Part shown: positions 8,833 to 35,727 of the stretch, one piece after another
Layout: each line of letters begins with the position of its first letter
How positions within the stretch are numbered: the first letter of the stretch is position 1
Origin: Aquirhabdus parva
Lineage (GTDB): Bacteria > Pseudomonadota > Gammaproteobacteria > Pseudomonadales > Moraxellaceae
DNA length: 64,000 nucleotides
Reading direction: 5' to 3'
Assembly (NCBI RefSeq): GCF_003351745.1
Contig: NZ_CP031222.1
Coordinates: forward strand, 1,594,207 to 1,658,206
Position numbers and translations under genes: made by a program
Notes under the pieces: model-generated
Told to the model about the DNA's origin: nothing
What the model saw: only the letters and a program-made list of their open reading frames with translations
Databases searched by the model: none

Positions 8833-10539
8833 TTATGAATGACTAACCAACTCAACCCGCTGAGTTGCTGGCGATTCAGTACCATGAGGAATTAAATAGC
8901 CGGCATTGGGATTAAACGTGTCAGGATTGGCCATTGCCCACAATTGAGTATACACATCAGACTGCTCTTCACCAGTAATCAGGCTACTCTCTTTTAAGAA
9001 ATAATAGTGCTTTGAGAACAGTCTAATCTGTCCATCGGGTCCACGCCTAATCACATGGTAAGGTTCCAAATCATCAGGATGAGTCACACCGACAGCGCCC
9101 ATAATTTCTGCAAGTGCAGCAAGTGTGCCTTCATGGAAATTTTTGACACGCTGTGCTTTATCGGGAACAACCAATGCTTGTTGGCGATAAGGATCTTGGG
9201 TTGCCACGCCAGTGGGGCAGCGATCTGTATTACACGAGCGAGATTGAATACAGCCTAGAGCAAACATAAAGCCACGTGCGCTATTACACCAATCAGCACC
9301 AAGAGCCAGCATACGCGCAACGTCAAAACCGCTGATAATTTTGCCACTAACGCCGACCCGAATTTTGTCACGAATCCCTGCGCCTACTAGCGTGTTATGC
9401 ACCATCAAAAAGCCATCACGCAGTGGCATACCGATATGATCCATGAATTCAACATCCGCGGCGCCAGTACCGCCTTCAGCACCATCTACAACAATAAAGT
9501 CTGGATAAGTATCGGTGAGCAGCATGGCTTTTACTATGGCCATAAATTCCCACGGATGTCCAATGCACAATTTAAAACCGACGGGTTTACCCCCTGAAAG
9601 ATCGCGTAATTGTTTAATAAAAGTAATGAGCTCTCGAGGCGTGGTGAACGCGGTATGCGCTGGGGGCGAGACACAATCTTGTGCAACAGGAATCCCCCGC
9701 GTTCGTGCAATTTCTGGCGTGACTTTACCTGCGGGGAGAAGACCTCCAAGTCCAGGCTTCGCACCTTGACTGATTTTGATCTCAATCATTTTAACTTGTG
9801 GGTTGGTCGCTTTACTTTGGAATTCTTCAGGGTCAAATTTACCCTCTAAAGTTCGACAACCGAAATAGCCTGAGGCGATTTCCCAGACAATGTCACCTTT
9901 TGACTCAAGGTGATAAGGGCTCATCGAGCCCTCACCAGTGTCATGATAAAAGTTGCCAAGTTCGGCCCCTCGATTCAAAGCGCGAATAGCATTGGCTGAG
10001 AGAGCACCAAAGCTCATGGCTGATATATTGAACACAGAACAGGAGTAGGGTTGTAAGCAGTCTTTGCCGCCTATTACGATACGGAAATCATGATCTTTTA
10101 ACGTCATGGCGCCAATAGATTGTGTCATCCATTCGCTGCCGCCTTCGTATAAGTTACTGATGGTGCCAAAAGCACGAGTATCATTTTCTTTCTTCGCGCG
10201 TTGATAGACGAGTGAGCGCTGATCACGGGAAAAGGGCAATTCGTCAGTATCACTCTCAATGAAATATTGACGAATTTCTGGTCGGAATTCTTCGAATAGA
10301 AATCGCATATGCCCAATTATCGGGTAATTACGCAAGATTGCGTGATGACTTTGAAAGCGATCACGAAATCCCAGTACAACAAATGCGCCTGTGATTAACG
10401 CTAACCACCAAACATGTTCATAAATGCATAGGATTGTGAAAAGGGTAAAAATAATCCAGACTGCATAGCGGGCGATGGGAGATGCTCTGGTTTTGTGTGT
10501 TGGAGAAATTTGATGCTCTGCGATTTTTTTGTCCGTCAT
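8833..10539 (-). CDS. FMN-binding glutamate-synthase-family protein
   Basis: 568 residues corresponding to the central FMN/synthase domain of glutamate synthase, without the glutamine amidotransferase domain. About residues 24-58 form one or two membrane segments, so the enzyme is probably membrane-anchored. The catalytic domain (about 110-530) has the family features SFGALSANAIRALNRGA and the cysteine cluster CIQSRSCNTDRCPTG (about 431-446) that would ligate an Fe-S centre. Such stand-alone proteins are widespread and mostly uncharacterised; ammonia-dependent glutamate synthesis or another FMN oxidoreduction is possible. It is divergent from argJ. Confidence 0.82.
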   Translation of the reverse strand: MTDKKIAEHQISPTHKTRASPIARYAVWIIFTLFTILCIYEHVWWLALITGAFVVLGFRDRFQSHHAILRNYPIIGHMRFLFEEFRPEIRQYFIESDTDELPFSRDQRSLVYQRAKKENDTRAFGTISNLYEGGSEWMTQSIGAMTLKDHDFRIVIGGKDCLQPYSCSVFNISAMSFGALSANAIRALNRGAELGNFYHDTGEGSMSPYHLESKGDIVWEIASGYFGCRTLEGKFDPEEFQSKATNPQVKMIEIKISQGAKPGLGGLLPAGKVTPEIARTRGIPVAQDCVSPPAHTAFTTPRELITFIKQLRDLSGGKPVGFKLCIGHPWEFMAIVKAMLLTDTYPDFIVVDGAEGGTGAADVEFMDHIGMPLRDGFLMVHNTLVGAGIRDKIRVGVSGKIISGFDVARMLALGADWCNSARGFMFALGCIQSRSCNTDRCPTGVATQDPYRQQALVVPDKAQRVKNFHEGTLAALAEIMGAVGVTHPDDLEPYHVIRRGPDGQIRLFSKHYYFLKESSLITGEEQSDVYTQLWAMANPDTFNPNAGYLIPHGTESPATQRVELVSHS

Positions 10540-12150: not shown

Positions 12151-13044
12151 TTAGCTATTTATAACAATCATGACAAGTCCAAGCAATAAGAATATATTCG
12201 AAAACACTCCCCTTAGACTGATTTTTTCGTGTAAGAAAACAACGCCCAAAAACACACCGATCGGAATGCTGAGCTGCCTAAAGGCTACCGCGTAGCTGAC
12301 ATTTGTCACGAGCATATAGCTCAAAAGGACTAAAGCATAAGTGATAAACATCATCACACCTGCCAAAAAAGCAGTTTTGGCATGGATTTGATAAGTGTTT
12401 CTAAGTTTAATGCGCTGAATTTTGGAAAAGAAGATACAGGCAAGAAAAATCATCGTTGCCCATGCTTCACAGCTTGCATAAAACAACATCAGATGCCACT
12501 TTGGCTCGTGCGGATACCAACCTTGTAGTCTTTGTAGGGCATGGTAATCAATTAATGAATATGCGACTGTACCCAATGCTGCGATTACTGCATAGACTAT
12601 TGCGATCACTTGACTCGATTCCGAATGATGAATTCTGACGAGGCTCAGCATCGCAATAACCACGATCACCATACCGCAAATTGCAATAGAATCTGGTTCT
12701 CCGTTTAGAAATATGGCACTACCTAAGGGAACCAGTAATACAGGTAATGCACGAGCAAGCGGGTAACTTAGTCCAAATGCACCATGCTGATATGTTCCTG
12801 CTAATCCAATAAAATAGACACCTTGTGCAATTCCTGTCGCACAAACAAGTAGCCAAAAAAAAGATGGAAGCTCGATAAACCAACGGCCGAAATAAATCAA
12901 AAATGGCAGAGAAACCGTTGCTGTAGCAACAGTTGTCAGGGAGTAGAATGTAACCCCAGCTTGTCCAGCACGCTTACCAAAAAGATTCCAAGAAGCATGC
13001 GCTACTGCTGAAAGGGTGAGGAGCAATAGCGCTATTAATGACAT
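12151..13044 (-). CDS. EamA/DMT-superfamily transporter in the phosphonate operon
   Basis: 297 residues with ten hydrophobic helices and two EamA-type halves; the N-terminus MSLIALLLLTLSAVAHASWN is typical of the drug/metabolite transporter superfamily. Its start codon directly abuts the stop of phnX with no gap, so it is the last gene of the aminophosphonate operon. By position it may export or import a compound linked to aminophosphonate catabolism, for example alanine, phosphonoacetaldehyde or an amine. The substrate cannot be inferred from sequence. Confidence 0.8.
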   Translation of the reverse strand: MSLIALLLLTLSAVAHASWNLFGKRAGQAGVTFYSLTTVATATVSLPFLIYFGRWFIELPSFFWLLVCATGIAQGVYFIGLAGTYQHGAFGLSYPLARALPVLLVPLGSAIFLNGEPDSIAICGMVIVVIAMLSLVRIHHSESSQVIAIVYAVIAALGTVAYSLIDYHALQRLQGWYPHEPKWHLMLFYASCEAWATMIFLACIFFSKIQRIKLRNTYQIHAKTAFLAGVMMFITYALVLLSYMLVTNVSYAVAFRQLSIPIGVFLGVVFLHEKISLRGVFSNIFLLLGLVMIVINS

Positions 13045-13875
13045 TTATGGTTTCTCTCCAATCGCCAAACGACATTCAATATCATCTAATACGGGAATCA
13101 AATCAGCAATGCTATCGATAACGTAGTGGGCTCCGGAAGCTGCAAGCTTTTCATACGCTTTAGAGCGATATTGTTCTTGCTCTTCAGTGGGTAGGATTGA
13201 CCATGCCTCTAAACTCAAACCGACCTCATTACCACTAATCGCCACACCGACGGTCCAACATCCTGCATTTAGACCTTCTTCAATACCGACAGGTGTATCA
13301 TCCACTTTAACGACTGATGCAATATTCTGTACACCTAGTGCCATCAGATTTTTCCATAGCATATCTGGGTATGGGCGCCCCCTCTCAACATCGCTGGCAG
13401 TGACAGTTGCATCTGGGGTGAACCCTTGCTTACTGGCTTCTGGTAATAGCGCATCAAGCATAATCCGAGCGTACCCTGTATTACTGCCGATTTTATAGCC
13501 TCGTGTGCGAATTTCAGCAAAAGTTTCCAATGCGCCTGGTAATAACTGAGCACATCGGGGGATTGATTTTAATTGATAGGGAATGAAATCATGATAAAGA
13601 CGATCGATATCTGTTGTTGTAGATGCTTGGTCATAATGCTTTTGCCACTCAGCAGCTATGCGCGGCATCGCCAGCAAAGCCGCAACATGTTCACGCTTTT
13701 CCAGACCCATTGGTGCACGCGCTTCTTGCTCAGTAATCGGTACAGCGTTTTCTTCAAATAACGCCATAAATGCGAGAATTGGGGCACGTGATCCAAAATC
13801 TACAGTCGTGCCGGCCCAATCAAAAACAATCGCTTGCAGCGAACCAGTGTACTGGCGGTGATAACGATAAGACAT
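13045..13875 (-). CDS. phnX: Phosphonoacetaldehyde hydrolase (phosphonatase)
   Basis: Cleaves the C-P bond of phosphonoacetaldehyde to acetaldehyde and phosphate, the second step of 2-aminoethylphosphonate use after PhnW. HAD-fold protein of 276 residues. Asp19 in FDWAGT is the nucleophile and Lys60 in MGLEKREHV is the family's Schiff-base lysine, both characteristic of phosphonatases; the acid/metal motif VKVDDTPVGIEEG is also present. It sits between the PhnZ-like gene (40-bp gap) and the transporter (no gap). Confidence 0.95.
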   Translation of the reverse strand: MSYRYHRQYTGSLQAIVFDWAGTTVDFGSRAPILAFMALFEENAVPITEQEARAPMGLEKREHVAALLAMPRIAAEWQKHYDQASTTTDIDRLYHDFIPYQLKSIPRCAQLLPGALETFAEIRTRGYKIGSNTGYARIMLDALLPEASKQGFTPDATVTASDVERGRPYPDMLWKNLMALGVQNIASVVKVDDTPVGIEEGLNAGCWTVGVAISGNEVGLSLEAWSILPTEEQEQYRSKAYEKLAASGAHYVIDSIADLIPVLDDIECRLAIGEKP

Positions 13876-29918: not shown

Positions 29919-29946
29919 ATTTAACATAATATACATTATACGACAT
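29919..29946. other. dif: dif site (XerC/XerD recombination site)
   Basis: XerD-type half ATTTAACATAA, six-base centre TATACA and XerC-type half TTATACGACAT. The XerD half and centre agree exactly with the reverse complement of the E. coli dif site as I remember it; the XerC half keeps TTAT-CG. A site this close to consensus is likely the chromosomal dif at the replication terminus, or a close relative carried by an element. Everything to 37.06 kb to its right is accessory in character. Confidence 0.8.
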
Positions 29947-29970
29947 CAATCACTACTGGCATGAGCCTAT
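29941..29970 (+). repeat. dif-adjacent repeat, copy 1
   Basis: Thirty nt that begin inside the XerC half (CGACATCAATCACTACTGGC, then ATGAGCCTAT). Identical copies occur at 31197-31226 (30 nt) and 35633-35658 (26 nt). Inside it, GGC-ATGA-GCC can form a small hairpin, and AATCA before it pairs with TGATT after it in copies 1 and 2. Confidence 0.85.
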
Positions 29971-30029
29971 TATTTTGATTGTTTTCACTTTAATTTGACC
30001 TACCTCACAGCAGGTCTTCATGTTTCAGC

Positions 30030-30983
30030 TTAGCGATCATCTAAGGTTGCAATGAAACCTTTAATCTCATCATTCCTATCTTTTACAATGTTTTTTTCTG
30101 CGCTAGCAACAATTGTTGGCCAAATTGAGCCACCCTCGTAATCGGAAGCTTTAAACCTTGACCATTCTTCGCAATATTGTTCCCATTTTTCTTGAGCCGA
30201 ATTAAAGGAACTATACTTATTTGATTCAAGACGAGAATACAATTTCTTAATTAGCTCAGAAAGTTCATTTCGGCTTTCCTCAAGAGCCTTGTAGGCAGCG
30301 ATATTCATGTCCACTTGAGTTAATGCCGCATCTGGATAAAGTAGATTGGAAATTAACTCATCCGTTGCTCTTAAGAACTGTACACAACTTTCAAAGCACC
30401 TAGAAACTTCATCGTATTTGATCTCATATGCACTTGCCAGCTCATGGCACACTATATGCCTAAGTTCAAAAGTTCTAGAAACGTCAGCAAAAATTTGGTC
30501 AGAATTAACGATCATTGGGGTGTTTGGTTTGCCTAAAACTTCGTGATCCCAACGATTTGTAACGCTACTAAGCTTTGTTAGAAACTTCTCTCCAATCAGA
30601 CAAGTCAGTGTCGTATCAAGGTTCTCAATCCGGCTGAGCGGAATTACATGAGCAATAAGTTCTCCAAAAGTAATCGATTTACCATGCATTGCCTTAAAAA
30701 TGGAAAAATCAAGTTTAACTGTCGATGCTAACCGTTCTGCATTTGAAAAGTAAGGTTCCCCATGATCAACAATATCTTTAATTACTAGTCGAAAATAACC
30801 TTCAACTGTTGCAATCAGAGCAACGGGGAAATAACGCGTAAGTTCATGATTATCAGGAGTATGGATGCTAAATGCTCTTTCGAGTTCAGATAGTCTTGAA
30901 GGTAGTTCTGCCATTGCTGAGCCAAACTGTCGACGATGTCTAACTTCTTTTATTTCTTGTATAAGATCACGCGTTTTTGACAT
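30030..30983 (-). CDS. HEPN-like protein with C-terminal LprI-like domain
   Basis: 317 residues, not previously familiar to me as a named family. The first 200 residues are helical and contain ELRHIVCHE, which fits the RX4-6H signature of HEPN ribonucleases (Arg175, His180). Residues 225-312 resemble the lysozyme-inhibitor LprI/DUF1311 domain: AYKALEESRNELSELIKKLY, then SAQEKWEQYCEEWSRF and ASDYEGGSIWPTIVAS, although the disulfide cysteines of exported LprI proteins are absent and there is no signal peptide. So it is probably a cytosolic fusion. It lies right after dif, flanked by the dif-adjacent repeats, pointing to an acquired gene, possibly defence-related. Confidence 0.6.
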   Translation of the reverse strand: MSKTRDLIQEIKEVRHRRQFGSAMAELPSRLSELERAFSIHTPDNHELTRYFPVALIATVEGYFRLVIKDIVDHGEPYFSNAERLASTVKLDFSIFKAMHGKSITFGELIAHVIPLSRIENLDTTLTCLIGEKFLTKLSSVTNRWDHEVLGKPNTPMIVNSDQIFADVSRTFELRHIVCHELASAYEIKYDEVSRCFESCVQFLRATDELISNLLYPDAALTQVDMNIAAYKALEESRNELSELIKKLYSRLESNKYSSFNSAQEKWEQYCEEWSRFKASDYEGGSIWPTIVASAEKNIVKDRNDEIKGFIATLDDR

Positions 30984-31171: not shown

Positions 31172-31202
31172 ATTTAGCATAAATATAAACATTATGCGAC
31201 AT
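31172..31202. other. Degenerate dif-like site
   Basis: ATTTAGCATAA (31172-31182) and TTATGCGACAT (31192-31202) match XerD- and XerC-type halves, but the spacer is 9 nt (ATATAAACA) instead of 6, so it is probably a decayed or hybrid junction. Confidence 0.6.
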
Positions 31203-31226
31203 CAATCACTACTGGCATGAGCCTAT
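31197..31226 (+). repeat. dif-adjacent repeat, copy 2
   Basis: Identical over 30 nt to 29941-29970 and in the same relation to a dif-like XerC half. Confidence 0.88.
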
Positions 31227-31310
31227 CATTCTGATTATGTTGACTTTATTCTATTGTGTATTGGACCTTATTTAACTTCTTACCTTCAAGCTGCATCGGA
31301 AAAGATATCT

Positions 31311-31964
31311 TCAAGAAAGATATTTAGTCAAAAACCGTTCAACCTCACTGATCATATAAGCAACATCATTGGCATTATATTCATCAGACTTGCCATGAGC
31401 CGCACTATTTCTTATAGCAGCTAAAGCGGTGATTTGCTTTTGTTGAAGTACGTTATATACACCAGCTTTAACTAAATCCGCATTCATAATCTCTAGCTTA
31501 ATTTTTACAGTATTAATGCCATTATCATTACAAAGTTGTCTAATCGTCGTCTCAAGTACGACACCCGCAATAACAGCTGCCGCAGATACATAGCTACTTT
31601 TCAAAAGCTCTTTTGCTTGCTCTAATTCATCATCAAATACTTCTGCCTGAACTAACTGCTTAAACGAAGTTATATAACCATTTTTTAGGTCATCATATGC
31701 AGCTTTGAGAATTGGCTGCACACGCTTAATAGTTTTTAATCTTGAATCCTGCATCCTTGGTTTAGTTTCAACAATAAACCACTCTAAATGAACAGATTTT
31801 TCTCCGCAGGCCAAAATAAGTAAATGTTTGGTTTTAATTATCCATTCTGAAAATAAAGCAATTCCTTCATCATTTAATGTTTCAGAGCCCTTATTTACCA
31901 TTGATTGAATAGAATCAGCTTCGGTAATTAATTGCTCAAAACGTACTAAAAGTTTTTTACTCAT
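31311..31964 (-). CDS. HEPN-superfamily protein (DUF4145-like)
   Basis: 217 residues, helical. The C-terminal half resembles DUF4145/HEPN proteins: SAAAVIAGVVLETTIRQLC, a middle segment NADLVKAGVYNVLQQKQI, then AAIRNSAAHG, where Arg185 and His190 fit the RX4-6H catalytic signature of HEPN RNases. Such proteins occur as toxins or effectors in defence and toxin-antitoxin systems. Its start overlaps the stop of the 68-residue protein upstream by 4 bp, so the two are translated together, as in two-gene toxin-antitoxin units. No nucleotidyltransferase partner is visible. Located between dif-adjacent repeats. Confidence 0.65.
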   Translation of the reverse strand: MSKKLLVRFEQLITEADSIQSMVNKGSETLNDEGIALFSEWIIKTKHLLILACGEKSVHLEWFIVETKPRMQDSRLKTIKRVQPILKAAYDDLKNGYITSFKQLVQAEVFDDELEQAKELLKSSYVSAAAVIAGVVLETTIRQLCNDNGINTVKIKLEIMNADLVKAGVYNVLQQKQITALAAIRNSAAHGKSDEYNANDVAYMISEVERFLTKYLS

Positions 31965-32613: not shown

Positions 32614-32715
32614 ATATTCACCCAGAGTAGAATTGCGGCAAGGTGGAATAAAATTGTTGACGGGTACTAGGAATAATAAATAGTGAGCACGCTCACTAAC
32701 GATGAGAGGGAGTGT

Positions 32716-34185
32716 ATGGGTGAGGCAAAACGCAGGGGTACAAAAGCGCAACGGATAGCCACCCTGCTAAATGAGAGCGGCGTAATTCCGATGACAGCCG
32801 AACGATACAACGCATATATAGCTTGGACACGCTCCCCGATCGCTGATGCTGTTGGCATTGAATTAGAGTTCTTTTCAGATACGGCTGAGACATTGATTGG
32901 CGTTCTAATAAAGGATCAATTTGATCGGGATTTTGGCTTTGTGATGCTTGGTCGAGACCTCAAGGGTCGATTCCGTTGTATCGACGTGAATTGCAGCATG
33001 ACTAGAACGAACGCGCGACACGCTCTGTTCGCATCGTTTAGAAAGCATCTCTCACGTGGGGAAAAGGTCTTTTCCCAAGGCGATGAGAAGACTGACAAAG
33101 GAGGTGTTGACCTCTTCAACTCAAAGCTTCCCGTCAACCAACAGCACCAAGCTTTTAAAAGGCTATGTTCAGAGCCGCATTGGGTGCCAGCACGGGGGAT
33201 CATGTCTGAAATGATGCGCCACTTTGTTGACGTTGACGGCAACTTCGTAGAGCAGTTTCAGACGACCGCATTCGACTCAAGAATTTGGGAGCTATATCTC
33301 TATGCTGCGCTACTGGAACTTGACCTCTTCGTGAACAAGGAACACGAGGCACCTGACTTCGAAGTTAGCGATGGGCAAAGCAAGGTATTCATCGAAGCCG
33401 TTATCGTCGGTCCATCTCCGAATGATCCCCCTCTTCATCCAACTGATAATGGCATGCCTAGAATGCGTAGCCCTGAAGAGATCAAGGAGCTATTGAAGAC
33501 CCGTGCACCTATTCGATTCGGCAGCGCACTGTATTCCAAGCTCAACCGGAAAATCAAATATTGGGATTTACGGCACGTTAAAGGACATCCGCTGGTCTTT
33601 GCAGTCGCTGATTTTCACGAGAACCAGTCCATGACTTGGACTTCACCGGCGCTTCTTGAATACCTCTACGGTGTCACGCACGATTTCATATTTGACGACT
33701 CGGGTCAGTTAGTCATTACGCCACTAAAGATTGAAACACATGAGTACCGCGGTAAGACTATTCCATCTGGCTACTTCCTGCTACCGGGAGCGGAGAACAT
33801 AAGTGCAGTGTTGTTCTCATCGTCTGGTACAATTTCAAAGTTCAATCGCATGGGGCTGCTTGCAGGCTTTGGCCTCCCAAACCAGAAAATCTTCCGATGT
33901 GGTGTAAAGCATCGCCACGATCCAAACGCTGCGCTGCCTGACCCCTTCTTACATGAAGTAAAGCAGGGGGTTGTGACTGAGACTTGGGCAGAAGGACTTT
34001 CGATGTTCCACAACCCAAATGCGAAACACAAGATTGATCCCGATATGTTTCCTGGTATTGCCCACCATTGGTTTGAGGACAGGAAAGTAAAGAGCTGGCT
34101 GCCTGAGTTTCACGTTTATAACTCATTCACCTGGAACGTGATTATTACCGATAAAGATGATCCAGACGAAGAGTTAGCGATATGA
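32716..34185 (+). CDS. Unrecognised accessory protein with PD-(D/E)XK-like core
   Basis: 489 residues from the ATG at 32716, preceded by GAGGGAG; an upstream GTG at 32683 is less likely. It begins MGEAKRR, a short motif seen at the start of many mobile-element and phage proteins. The middle carries RIWELYLYAALLELDLFV, PDF (Asp214) and VFIEAV (Glu227), an order that fits the PD-(D/E)XK nuclease fold, but the catalytic Lys is replaced (E-A-V), so activity is doubtful. G+C is visibly higher than in the neighbours. It sits between a decayed resolvase and a decayed Zot gene, implying transfer. A defence role is possible, unproven. Confidence 0.55.
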   Translation: MGEAKRRGTKAQRIATLLNESGVIPMTAERYNAYIAWTRSPIADAVGIELEFFSDTAETLIGVLIKDQFDRDFGFVMLGRDLKGRFRCIDVNCSMTRTNARHALFASFRKHLSRGEKVFSQGDEKTDKGGVDLFNSKLPVNQQHQAFKRLCSEPHWVPARGIMSEMMRHFVDVDGNFVEQFQTTAFDSRIWELYLYAALLELDLFVNKEHEAPDFEVSDGQSKVFIEAVIVGPSPNDPPLHPTDNGMPRMRSPEEIKELLKTRAPIRFGSALYSKLNRKIKYWDLRHVKGHPLVFAVADFHENQSMTWTSPALLEYLYGVTHDFIFDDSGQLVITPLKIETHEYRGKTIPSGYFLLPGAENISAVLFSSSGTISKFNRMGLLAGFGLPNQKIFRCGVKHRHDPNAALPDPFLHEVKQGVVTETWAEGLSMFHNPNAKHKIDPDMFPGIAHHWFEDRKVKSWLPEFHVYNSFTWNVIITDKDDPDEELAI

Positions 34186-35267: not shown

Positions 35268-35727
35268 TCCATCAAGGGCAGATTGAACGAATATAGATCT
35301 TTTTTGATGAGTTTTTGATATGAAATTGTTTTATAATTGTTTGTTTTTATTTAATTTATCATGTATGGCTGTCTTTTGTATTTGATGATATTGATCTTTC
35401 AAGTGATAGTTGTGCCTGGAGATCATCTAATTAGGTGCGACAACACTCACATCATAATAAGCTTTATTGTCTTATTTCGATTGGAATAACTGTTGCCTGA
35501 AACGAAATGCTTGAAAACAACATTAGTAACACAAGAGTATAAGCAACACAGTTTTATTACTATTTAACACAAGTATTTGTCATATTTACTAATTATAAGA
35601 CAACATTTAATAGAGATTACTTAGTTTACGCAATCAATCACTACTGGCATGAGCCTATTTGTTTGAATCAATTTGGGTTAATTTCATTGCCCTAGGCTTT
35701 CTTTCACTTCTAAAGACCTCATCGTTA
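35268..35727. other. AT-rich non-coding stretch with dif-adjacent repeat
   Basis: 460 bp, very AT-rich, no plausible gene. The recognisable part is the repeat at 35633-35658. Confidence 0.5.
35633..35658 (+). repeat. dif-adjacent repeat, copy 3
   Basis: 26 nt (ATCAATCACTACTGGCATGA then GCCTAT) identical to the same part of copies 1 and 2. The XerC half beside it has decayed (TTTACGCA), and no XerD half is clear. Confidence 0.85.

Follow-up and report, generated by a model that had tools for sequence, protein, structure and literature searches.

The Locus and Its Features

The window analyzed here is a stretch of 64,000 nucleotides of Aquirhabdus parva DNA. It contains, next to the chromosomal dif site, a gene whose product joins a HEPN-like helical domain to an LprI/DUF1311 domain, followed by a second accessory segment with a different HEPN gene and a homologue of a phage-defence protein. 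The features on which the analysis relies are the following, with positions counted from the first letter of the window.

29919–29946, no strand: chromosomal dif site of 28 bp, XerC/XerD; exact in two sister genomes, one mismatch in a third
29929–29992, no strand: first copy of a 64-bp repeat (right part of dif plus flank)
30030–30983, minus strand: HEPN-LprI fusion gene, an open reading frame of 317 aa with an ATG start; 14 intact copies aligned
30066–30326, minus strand: LprI/DUF1311 domain, residues 220–306, a three-helix bundle without the usual cysteines (PF07007, 3gi7, alignment)
30342–30896, minus strand: HEPN-like helical domain, residues about 30–214 (sub-cutoff PF18735 match, model matches)
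30444–30461, minus strand: RHIVCH (R175-x4-H180), closing helix 161–180 and predicted to be the RNase active-site motif; R and H invariant (14/14)
30789–30803, minus strand: E61-x3-R65, an Ex3[KR] motif in helix 46–73; invariant (14/14)
31172–31202, no strand: dif-like site, arms with 2 mismatches of 22, spacer of 9 instead of 6
31185–31248, no strand: second copy of the 64-bp repeat, 89% identical
31311–31964, minus strand: another, distinct HEPN gene (RNSAAH) that opens the next module, with relatives on Acinetobacter plasmids
32683–34185, plus strand: PD-T7-1 phage-defence homologue in the next module (PADLOC PDLC04073, E=8.6e-176)
35617–35680, no strand: third copy of the 64-bp repeat, 72% identical, no clear dif arms

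Two Domains in One Protein

A preliminary description of this DNA had proposed that an HEPN-type half and an LprI-like half are fused in one protein, and this is borne out by Pfam matches to both halves and by the 14 intact copies, all of which keep both. In particular, the C-terminal resemblance to LprI/DUF1311 that it had pointed out corresponds to a match of PF07007 on residues 220–306 well above the curated cutoff (E=4.3e-9, 37.1 bits vs. a gathering score of 22), and the RHIVCH motif with Arg175 and His180 lies, as claimed, at residues 175–180. On residues 30–213 the profile PF18735 (RiboL-PSP-HEPN) is matched with E=3.7e-5 and 24.2 bits, under its gathering score of 28.4, and it stays below this cutoff in other fused copies as well (22.7 bits in Sulfuricurvum, 26.6 in the divergent copy of G365 and 21.0 in that of G1426). 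For PF07007, seven other fused copies score between 26 and 44 bits, but that of Sulfuricurvum only 16.9.

The HEPN signature has been described as an Rx4-6H motif with a polar residue after the arginine, located at the end of helix 3, together with an Ex3[KR] motif in helix 2 (PMC3710099). All of these elements are found in the fusion family: the Rx4-6H motif is present with its polar residue, in the form RH[IV]xxHE in 13 of the 14 copies and RNxxxH in the remaining one; it closes helix 161–180, by the loop that leads to the next long helix (190–215); and the acidic motif, E61 and R65, is carried inside helix 46–73. The helical half of the window protein is thus classified as a probable HEPN domain mainly on account of its motifs and their place in the helices; the fold match described below is supportive only.

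The combination of HEPN and LprI is a new domain architecture, HEPN effectors and PF07007 proteins each being already known. In the literature searched, no paper treats HEPN together with LprI or DUF1311, RiboL-PSP is likewise absent, and the HEPN survey mentions neither DUF1311 nor lysozyme (PMC3710099). None of the families of PADLOC-DB 2.0.0 matches the fusion protein up to E=1, so that this database holds no model for it, and phage records gave no match. With phmmer the window protein had no relative among PDB sequences, and a profile search of the same sequences matched 6ar7 and 3gi7, in the LprI half only.

Structural Models

The preliminary description had named structure prediction and fold search as the check on which its reading could fail. 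The AlphaFold2 model of the window protein, built from a 9-row alignment (pLDDT 80.7, residues 1–22 uncertain), is nearly all helical, and DSSP assigns R175 and H180 to the C-terminal end of helix 161–180, the place of the HEPN active site (PMC3710099), and E61 and R65 to helix 46–73. On these helix positions, the refuting outcome named beforehand did not arise. A model of the Boseongicola copy has the same layout, with helices at 159–179 and 188–214; the two models are not independent since both input alignments consist of the same nine proteins in differing order.

Aligned with VIA-align, the C-terminal half of the window model superposes on the DUF1311 structure 3gi7 with Z 12.7 (1.7 Å, 91 residues) and on 4nsr, titled “Immunity protein,” with Z 11.2 (2.1 Å, 89 residues, 10% identity). 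The Boseongicola model repeats the LprI match (3gi7 Z 13.0, 6ar7 Z 9.1), and the predicted LprI fold of this half is firm, in agreement with the reuse of that fold suggested earlier. The best matches of the N-terminal half are HEPN proteins, namely 2hsb (Z 8.3, 3.8 Å, 124 residues) and 7ae9/7ae6, structures of the HepT toxin (Z 8.3), and the Boseongicola HEPN half matches Csm6 alone (Z 6.8), both values lying in the range that helical bundles often reach by chance; Csm6 follows in the window model with Z 7.9, and RnlA is lower, at 4.9. In the models a HEPN-like fold of this half is suggestive only, and the HEPN domain of the preliminary description is upheld by the motifs and helix positions, with a moderate structural match. 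A plain Foldseek search returned nothing at E<=0.001, 3gi7 being the 12th match with a probability of 0.97.

Distribution, Conservation and Selection

The 14 intact copies of the fusion, some only 25% identical, come from gamma- and alphaproteobacteria and Campylobacterota; a 15th copy, 54% identical to the window protein, is its closest relative and belongs to another family of the same order (G1426). A tblastn search of plasmids retrieved four full-length relatives, in Sulfuricurvum kujiense (34%), Neorhizobium, Ensifer and Paracoccus. Seven more were detected in genome contigs, in Roseovarius, Ensifer sp., Paracoccus sediminis, Boseongicola, Roseobacter, Rhizobium sullae and a Rhodospirillales MAG, by means of a profile made from an alignment of three alphaproteobacterial copies; the same scan with the window protein alone as query gave no match. 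Three matches were obtained among IMG/VR viral contigs; one of them repeats the locus of Paracoccus sediminis and another is interrupted by a stop. Whole-genome searches revealed a divergent copy with RNELVH in G365 and the 54% identical copy in G1426.

The fusion is rare. It was found in 2 of 293 genomes of the window's order; among 369 genomes of its class the window's own copy is the only full-length match; and in the class of genome G028 it occurs in 2 of 289 genomes, in both cases split between frames. Most matches of the class-wide search are stand-alone LprI proteins and not fusions. In all, three copies are broken by a frame split or a stop (in G028, at loci L002/L010; in G941, at L042/L044; and on viral contig L041), which may reflect assembly error or decay.

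Only 12 positions are invariant in the 14 intact copies: E61, R65, K90, G107, L129, L138, W145, R175, H180, W267, G285 and R303. The four putative catalytic residues, E61, R65, R175 and H180, are thus retained despite about 25–30% identity to the window protein and, since both halves are also kept in all 14 copies, the fusion is not a product of chance. Furthermore, whole-gene dN/dS is about 0.06–0.23 in five pairs of relatives, some of them with dS near saturation, and this indicates that the gene is under purifying selection.

The Boseongicola copy (L034, 8001–8945) is a recombinant: its first half is near-identical to the Roseobacter copy, and its second half, together with the next gene, is nearer to Roseovarius, with a breakpoint near residue 168 (0 of 2000 permutations). 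A swap of the LprI domain was considered for this mosaic and rejected: the exchanged stretch starts within the HEPN half and runs into the next gene, so that it offers no evidence of modular exchange of a sensor domain.

An LprI Domain Without Export Features

PF07007 proteins have been described as having conserved disulfide cysteines, and the member ScwA is periplasmic, requires its disulfides and controls the murein lytic transglycosylase MltD (PMC7933661). The fusion protein departs from this pattern. The HEPN domain precedes the LprI domain, and the charged N-terminus (MSKTRDLIQEIKEVRHRRQ...) has by inspection no hydrophobic signal peptide. Where three exported LprI proteins have their cysteines (MNxCA, DAxC and STCL or IGCL), the window protein has A, S and A; the single cysteine of its LprI part is located elsewhere. 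In the alignment the fused copies lack the cysteines of exported LprI and share with it the Trp, Gly and Arg positions. The absence of signal peptide and disulfide cysteines had been noted in the preliminary description, correctly, and the cytosolic location deduced there is supported by these missing export features.

The name of the domain should be treated with caution. ScwA gives no protection against lysozyme, the “lysozyme inhibitor” label of PF07007 is without experimental support, and in M. tuberculosis LprI it is the second domain, MliC, that is enough for lysozyme resistance (PMC7933661); from these facts, the label is not to be read as the function of the LprI domain.

A 194-aa protein of genome G618 (L016, 1294–1875) carries a cysteine-free LprI domain whose profile is close to that of the fused ones. 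At its N-terminus a short hydrophobic stretch precedes basic residues, which suggests an LprI domain on the cytosolic side.

The dif Modules of the Window

The exact dif site ends 84 bp beyond the stop (3′) end of the fusion gene. The three other genomes examined from the genus all carry it, one of them with a single mismatch, but the DNA to its right differs. The gene had been placed at the dif edge of an accessory block; the proximity to dif holds, but the gene lies between two sites, the second being the dif-like site at 31172–31202. It is therefore flanked on either side by an XerC/XerD-type site, as in dif/pdif modules, with a 9-bp spacer in the second. The repeat and the dif-like site at 31172–31248 divide the block into segments of 1.25 and 4.4 kb. 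The former has room for just one gene and carries the fusion gene only, and the latter contains the second HEPN gene, the PD-T7-1 homologue and a small predicted membrane protein. Over most of its length the block is A+T-richer than the window as a whole (33–39% G+C in four of six 1-kb bins vs. a window mean of 43%). XerCD recombination would presumably make these segments mobile.

About 45 bp (CAATCACTACTGGCATGAGCC...) follow each of three successive module borders (29919–29992, 31172–31248 and 35617–35680). Neither the dif sites of the three sister genomes nor IMG/VR contigs have this flank, which possibly marks the ends of a family of dif-borne elements. In the sister genome G400 (L055, 5298–10119) dif is followed by three genes that by eye are tyrosine recombinase-like, another dif-inserted element.

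Relatives with 56% identity to the second HEPN gene occur on small plasmids of Acinetobacter, and on one of these (L062) dif-type sites flank the block that carries the relative. On these plasmids the gene is preceded by one of 133 aa, and the window has a short open stretch only at that place. With the PD-T7-1 homologue and the second HEPN gene adjoining, the defence-type surroundings of the fusion gene are supported.

Genomic Context of the Other Copies

Several of the other copies lie among genes of restriction and defence. On the Sulfuricurvum plasmid, XRE, PIN, type I R and DUF4062 genes precede the fusion, which is followed by a Mrr-type nuclease; on the Paracoccus tegillarcae plasmid it is near RnlA/RnlB, a HATPase-domain protein, a recombinase and a DNA methyltransferase; in Ensifer it is directly behind an McrBC-type gene; and in Boseongicola an HNH endonuclease gene is upstream. 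Caspase-like, DUF6880 and VapE-like genes are within 8 kb in Roseobacter, and in Rhizobium sullae the fusion is accompanied by a UvrD-type helicase fragment and DUF4238. On viral contig L041 it adjoins a gene that by eye resembles a large terminase. No obvious defence gene is near the fusion in the Rhodospirillales (L037) and Neorhizobium (L012) loci.

No adjacent gene of the kind expected of a type II toxin-antitoxin pair is conserved, the neighbours varying between the loci examined; three Rhodobacterales loci have in common one downstream gene without an assigned family. Since no partner recurs next to the fusion in all loci, a self-sufficient gene is more likely than a toxin-antitoxin pair.

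In L064, the gene that follows the closest relative (9825–10475) has the same orientation, looks like a nucleotidyltransferase (VGSLARNQEVIGDID) and has no Pfam match; further on (12583–13473) there is a nucleotidyltransferase-HEPN fusion (PF05168, PF01909).

Proposed Function and Alternative Explanations

We propose, with a probability of about 60%, that the fusion gene encodes a cytosolic one-gene HEPN RNase effector, most likely an anti-phage one of the dormancy or abortive-infection type, controlled in cis by its LprI half. RNA cleavage, toxicity, phage defence and a regulatory role of LprI are what we infer from the features presented above. HEPN RNases are usually dimeric, with a composite active site, and the HEPN half would probably act as a dimer, cutting RNA at a site formed by E61/R65 and R175/H180; the LprI-fold domain would restrain the enzyme or activate it in cis, either through a bound partner or through dimerization, and phage attack or a similar insult would release the RNase. 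Against this proposal stand the sub-cutoff HEPN profile match, the structural match within the range of chance, the loci with no obvious defence neighbour, the lack of a PADLOC model and the three broken copies.

A possible, though less likely, alternative is that the LprI half is a structural or dimerization module that unites two HEPN domains, the trigger acting elsewhere. The usual dimeric state of HEPN RNases speaks for it, as does the conservation of W267, G285 and R303 in exported LprI too, by which these may be mere residues of the fold core. However, this explanation does not account for the persistence of the LprI fold in particular over such evolutionary distances.

It is rather unlikely, but of particular interest, that the LprI half is a cytosolic sensor, to which a phage endolysin or lysozyme made before lysis would bind, freeing the HEPN RNase and aborting the infection. 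The LprI fold is common to 3gi7 and 4nsr, and the latter we take to be TsiV3/TsaB, which neutralizes the peptidoglycan hydrolase VgrG3. This pair has been described (PMC6099711); the “TsiV3” of another study (eLife, PMC9635880) is a different protein with the same name. The control of the lytic transglycosylase MltD by ScwA, a PF07007 protein, also speaks for it (PMC7933661), and the loss of the usual cysteines and of the signal peptide is what is expected of a domain kept in the cytosol. On the other hand, the failure of ScwA to protect against lysozyme and the experimentally unsupported family label (PMC7933661) argue against a sensor of this kind, and the Boseongicola recombinant lends it no support. 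Judging by titles and the openings of abstracts, the literature search found apparently nothing on point about endolysin-triggered abortive systems.

It is doubtful that the fusion serves as toxin in an ordinary toxin-antitoxin pair, with the antitoxin encoded by a neighbouring or an unlinked gene. Pairs of HEPN toxins and MNT antitoxins are well known (PMC7641770), and the nucleotidyltransferase-looking gene behind the 54% identical relative would fit such an arrangement; however, this neighbour belongs to no Pfam family, none is conserved across the loci examined, and the segment of the window accommodates one gene only. Finally, it is improbable that the HEPN protein has decayed or lacks enzymatic activity and is mere passive cargo of a dif module: the three broken copies and the sub-threshold HEPN profile score agree with this, but dN/dS is low, and the protein has few residues as well conserved as the putative catalytic ones.

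The fusion is a widely scattered yet rare HEPN architecture, absent from PADLOC, that unites HEPN in one gene with an LprI domain related to exported proteins with ties to cell-wall hydrolases. Should LprI be a sensor, sensing of the lysis step would be linked to RNA cleavage in a one-gene abortive system that detects a lysis enzyme; even if it is not, the gene is a testable one-gene candidate in which an exported fold appears to be reused in the cytosol.

Relation to Known Systems

The setting of the fusion gene resembles that of Acinetobacter dif/pdif modules, in which accessory genes lie between XerC/XerD-type sites on the chromosome or on plasmids (PMC6449649, PMC12907356); the window differs in that its sites are in direct orientation, the second spacer is 9 bp and a conserved flank of about 45 bp follows both sites.

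With the LprI/DUF1311 family PF07007 (3gi7, 6ar7, ScwA) the C-terminal half shares an above-cutoff score, the Trp, Gly and Arg positions and a three-helix bundle (Z 12.7–13.0), whereas it has neither the signal peptide nor the set of disulfide cysteines and stands behind a HEPN domain. Its fold is also like that of the immunity protein 4nsr (Z 11.2), at only 10% identity; 4nsr is presumably a periplasmic, single-domain T6SS immunity protein paired with an effector, unlike the fusion.

The closest likeness in terms of predicted activity is to the HEPN RNases of defence and toxin systems, such as RnlA, AbiF/J/U2, Csm6 and HepT. The fusion protein has in common with them the Rx4H and Ex3R motifs, a helix 3 ended by the motif and a helical bundle, as well as restriction, prophage and plasmid settings; it differs from them in the sub-cutoff score of its nearest profile, PF18735, and in the LprI domain at its C-terminus.
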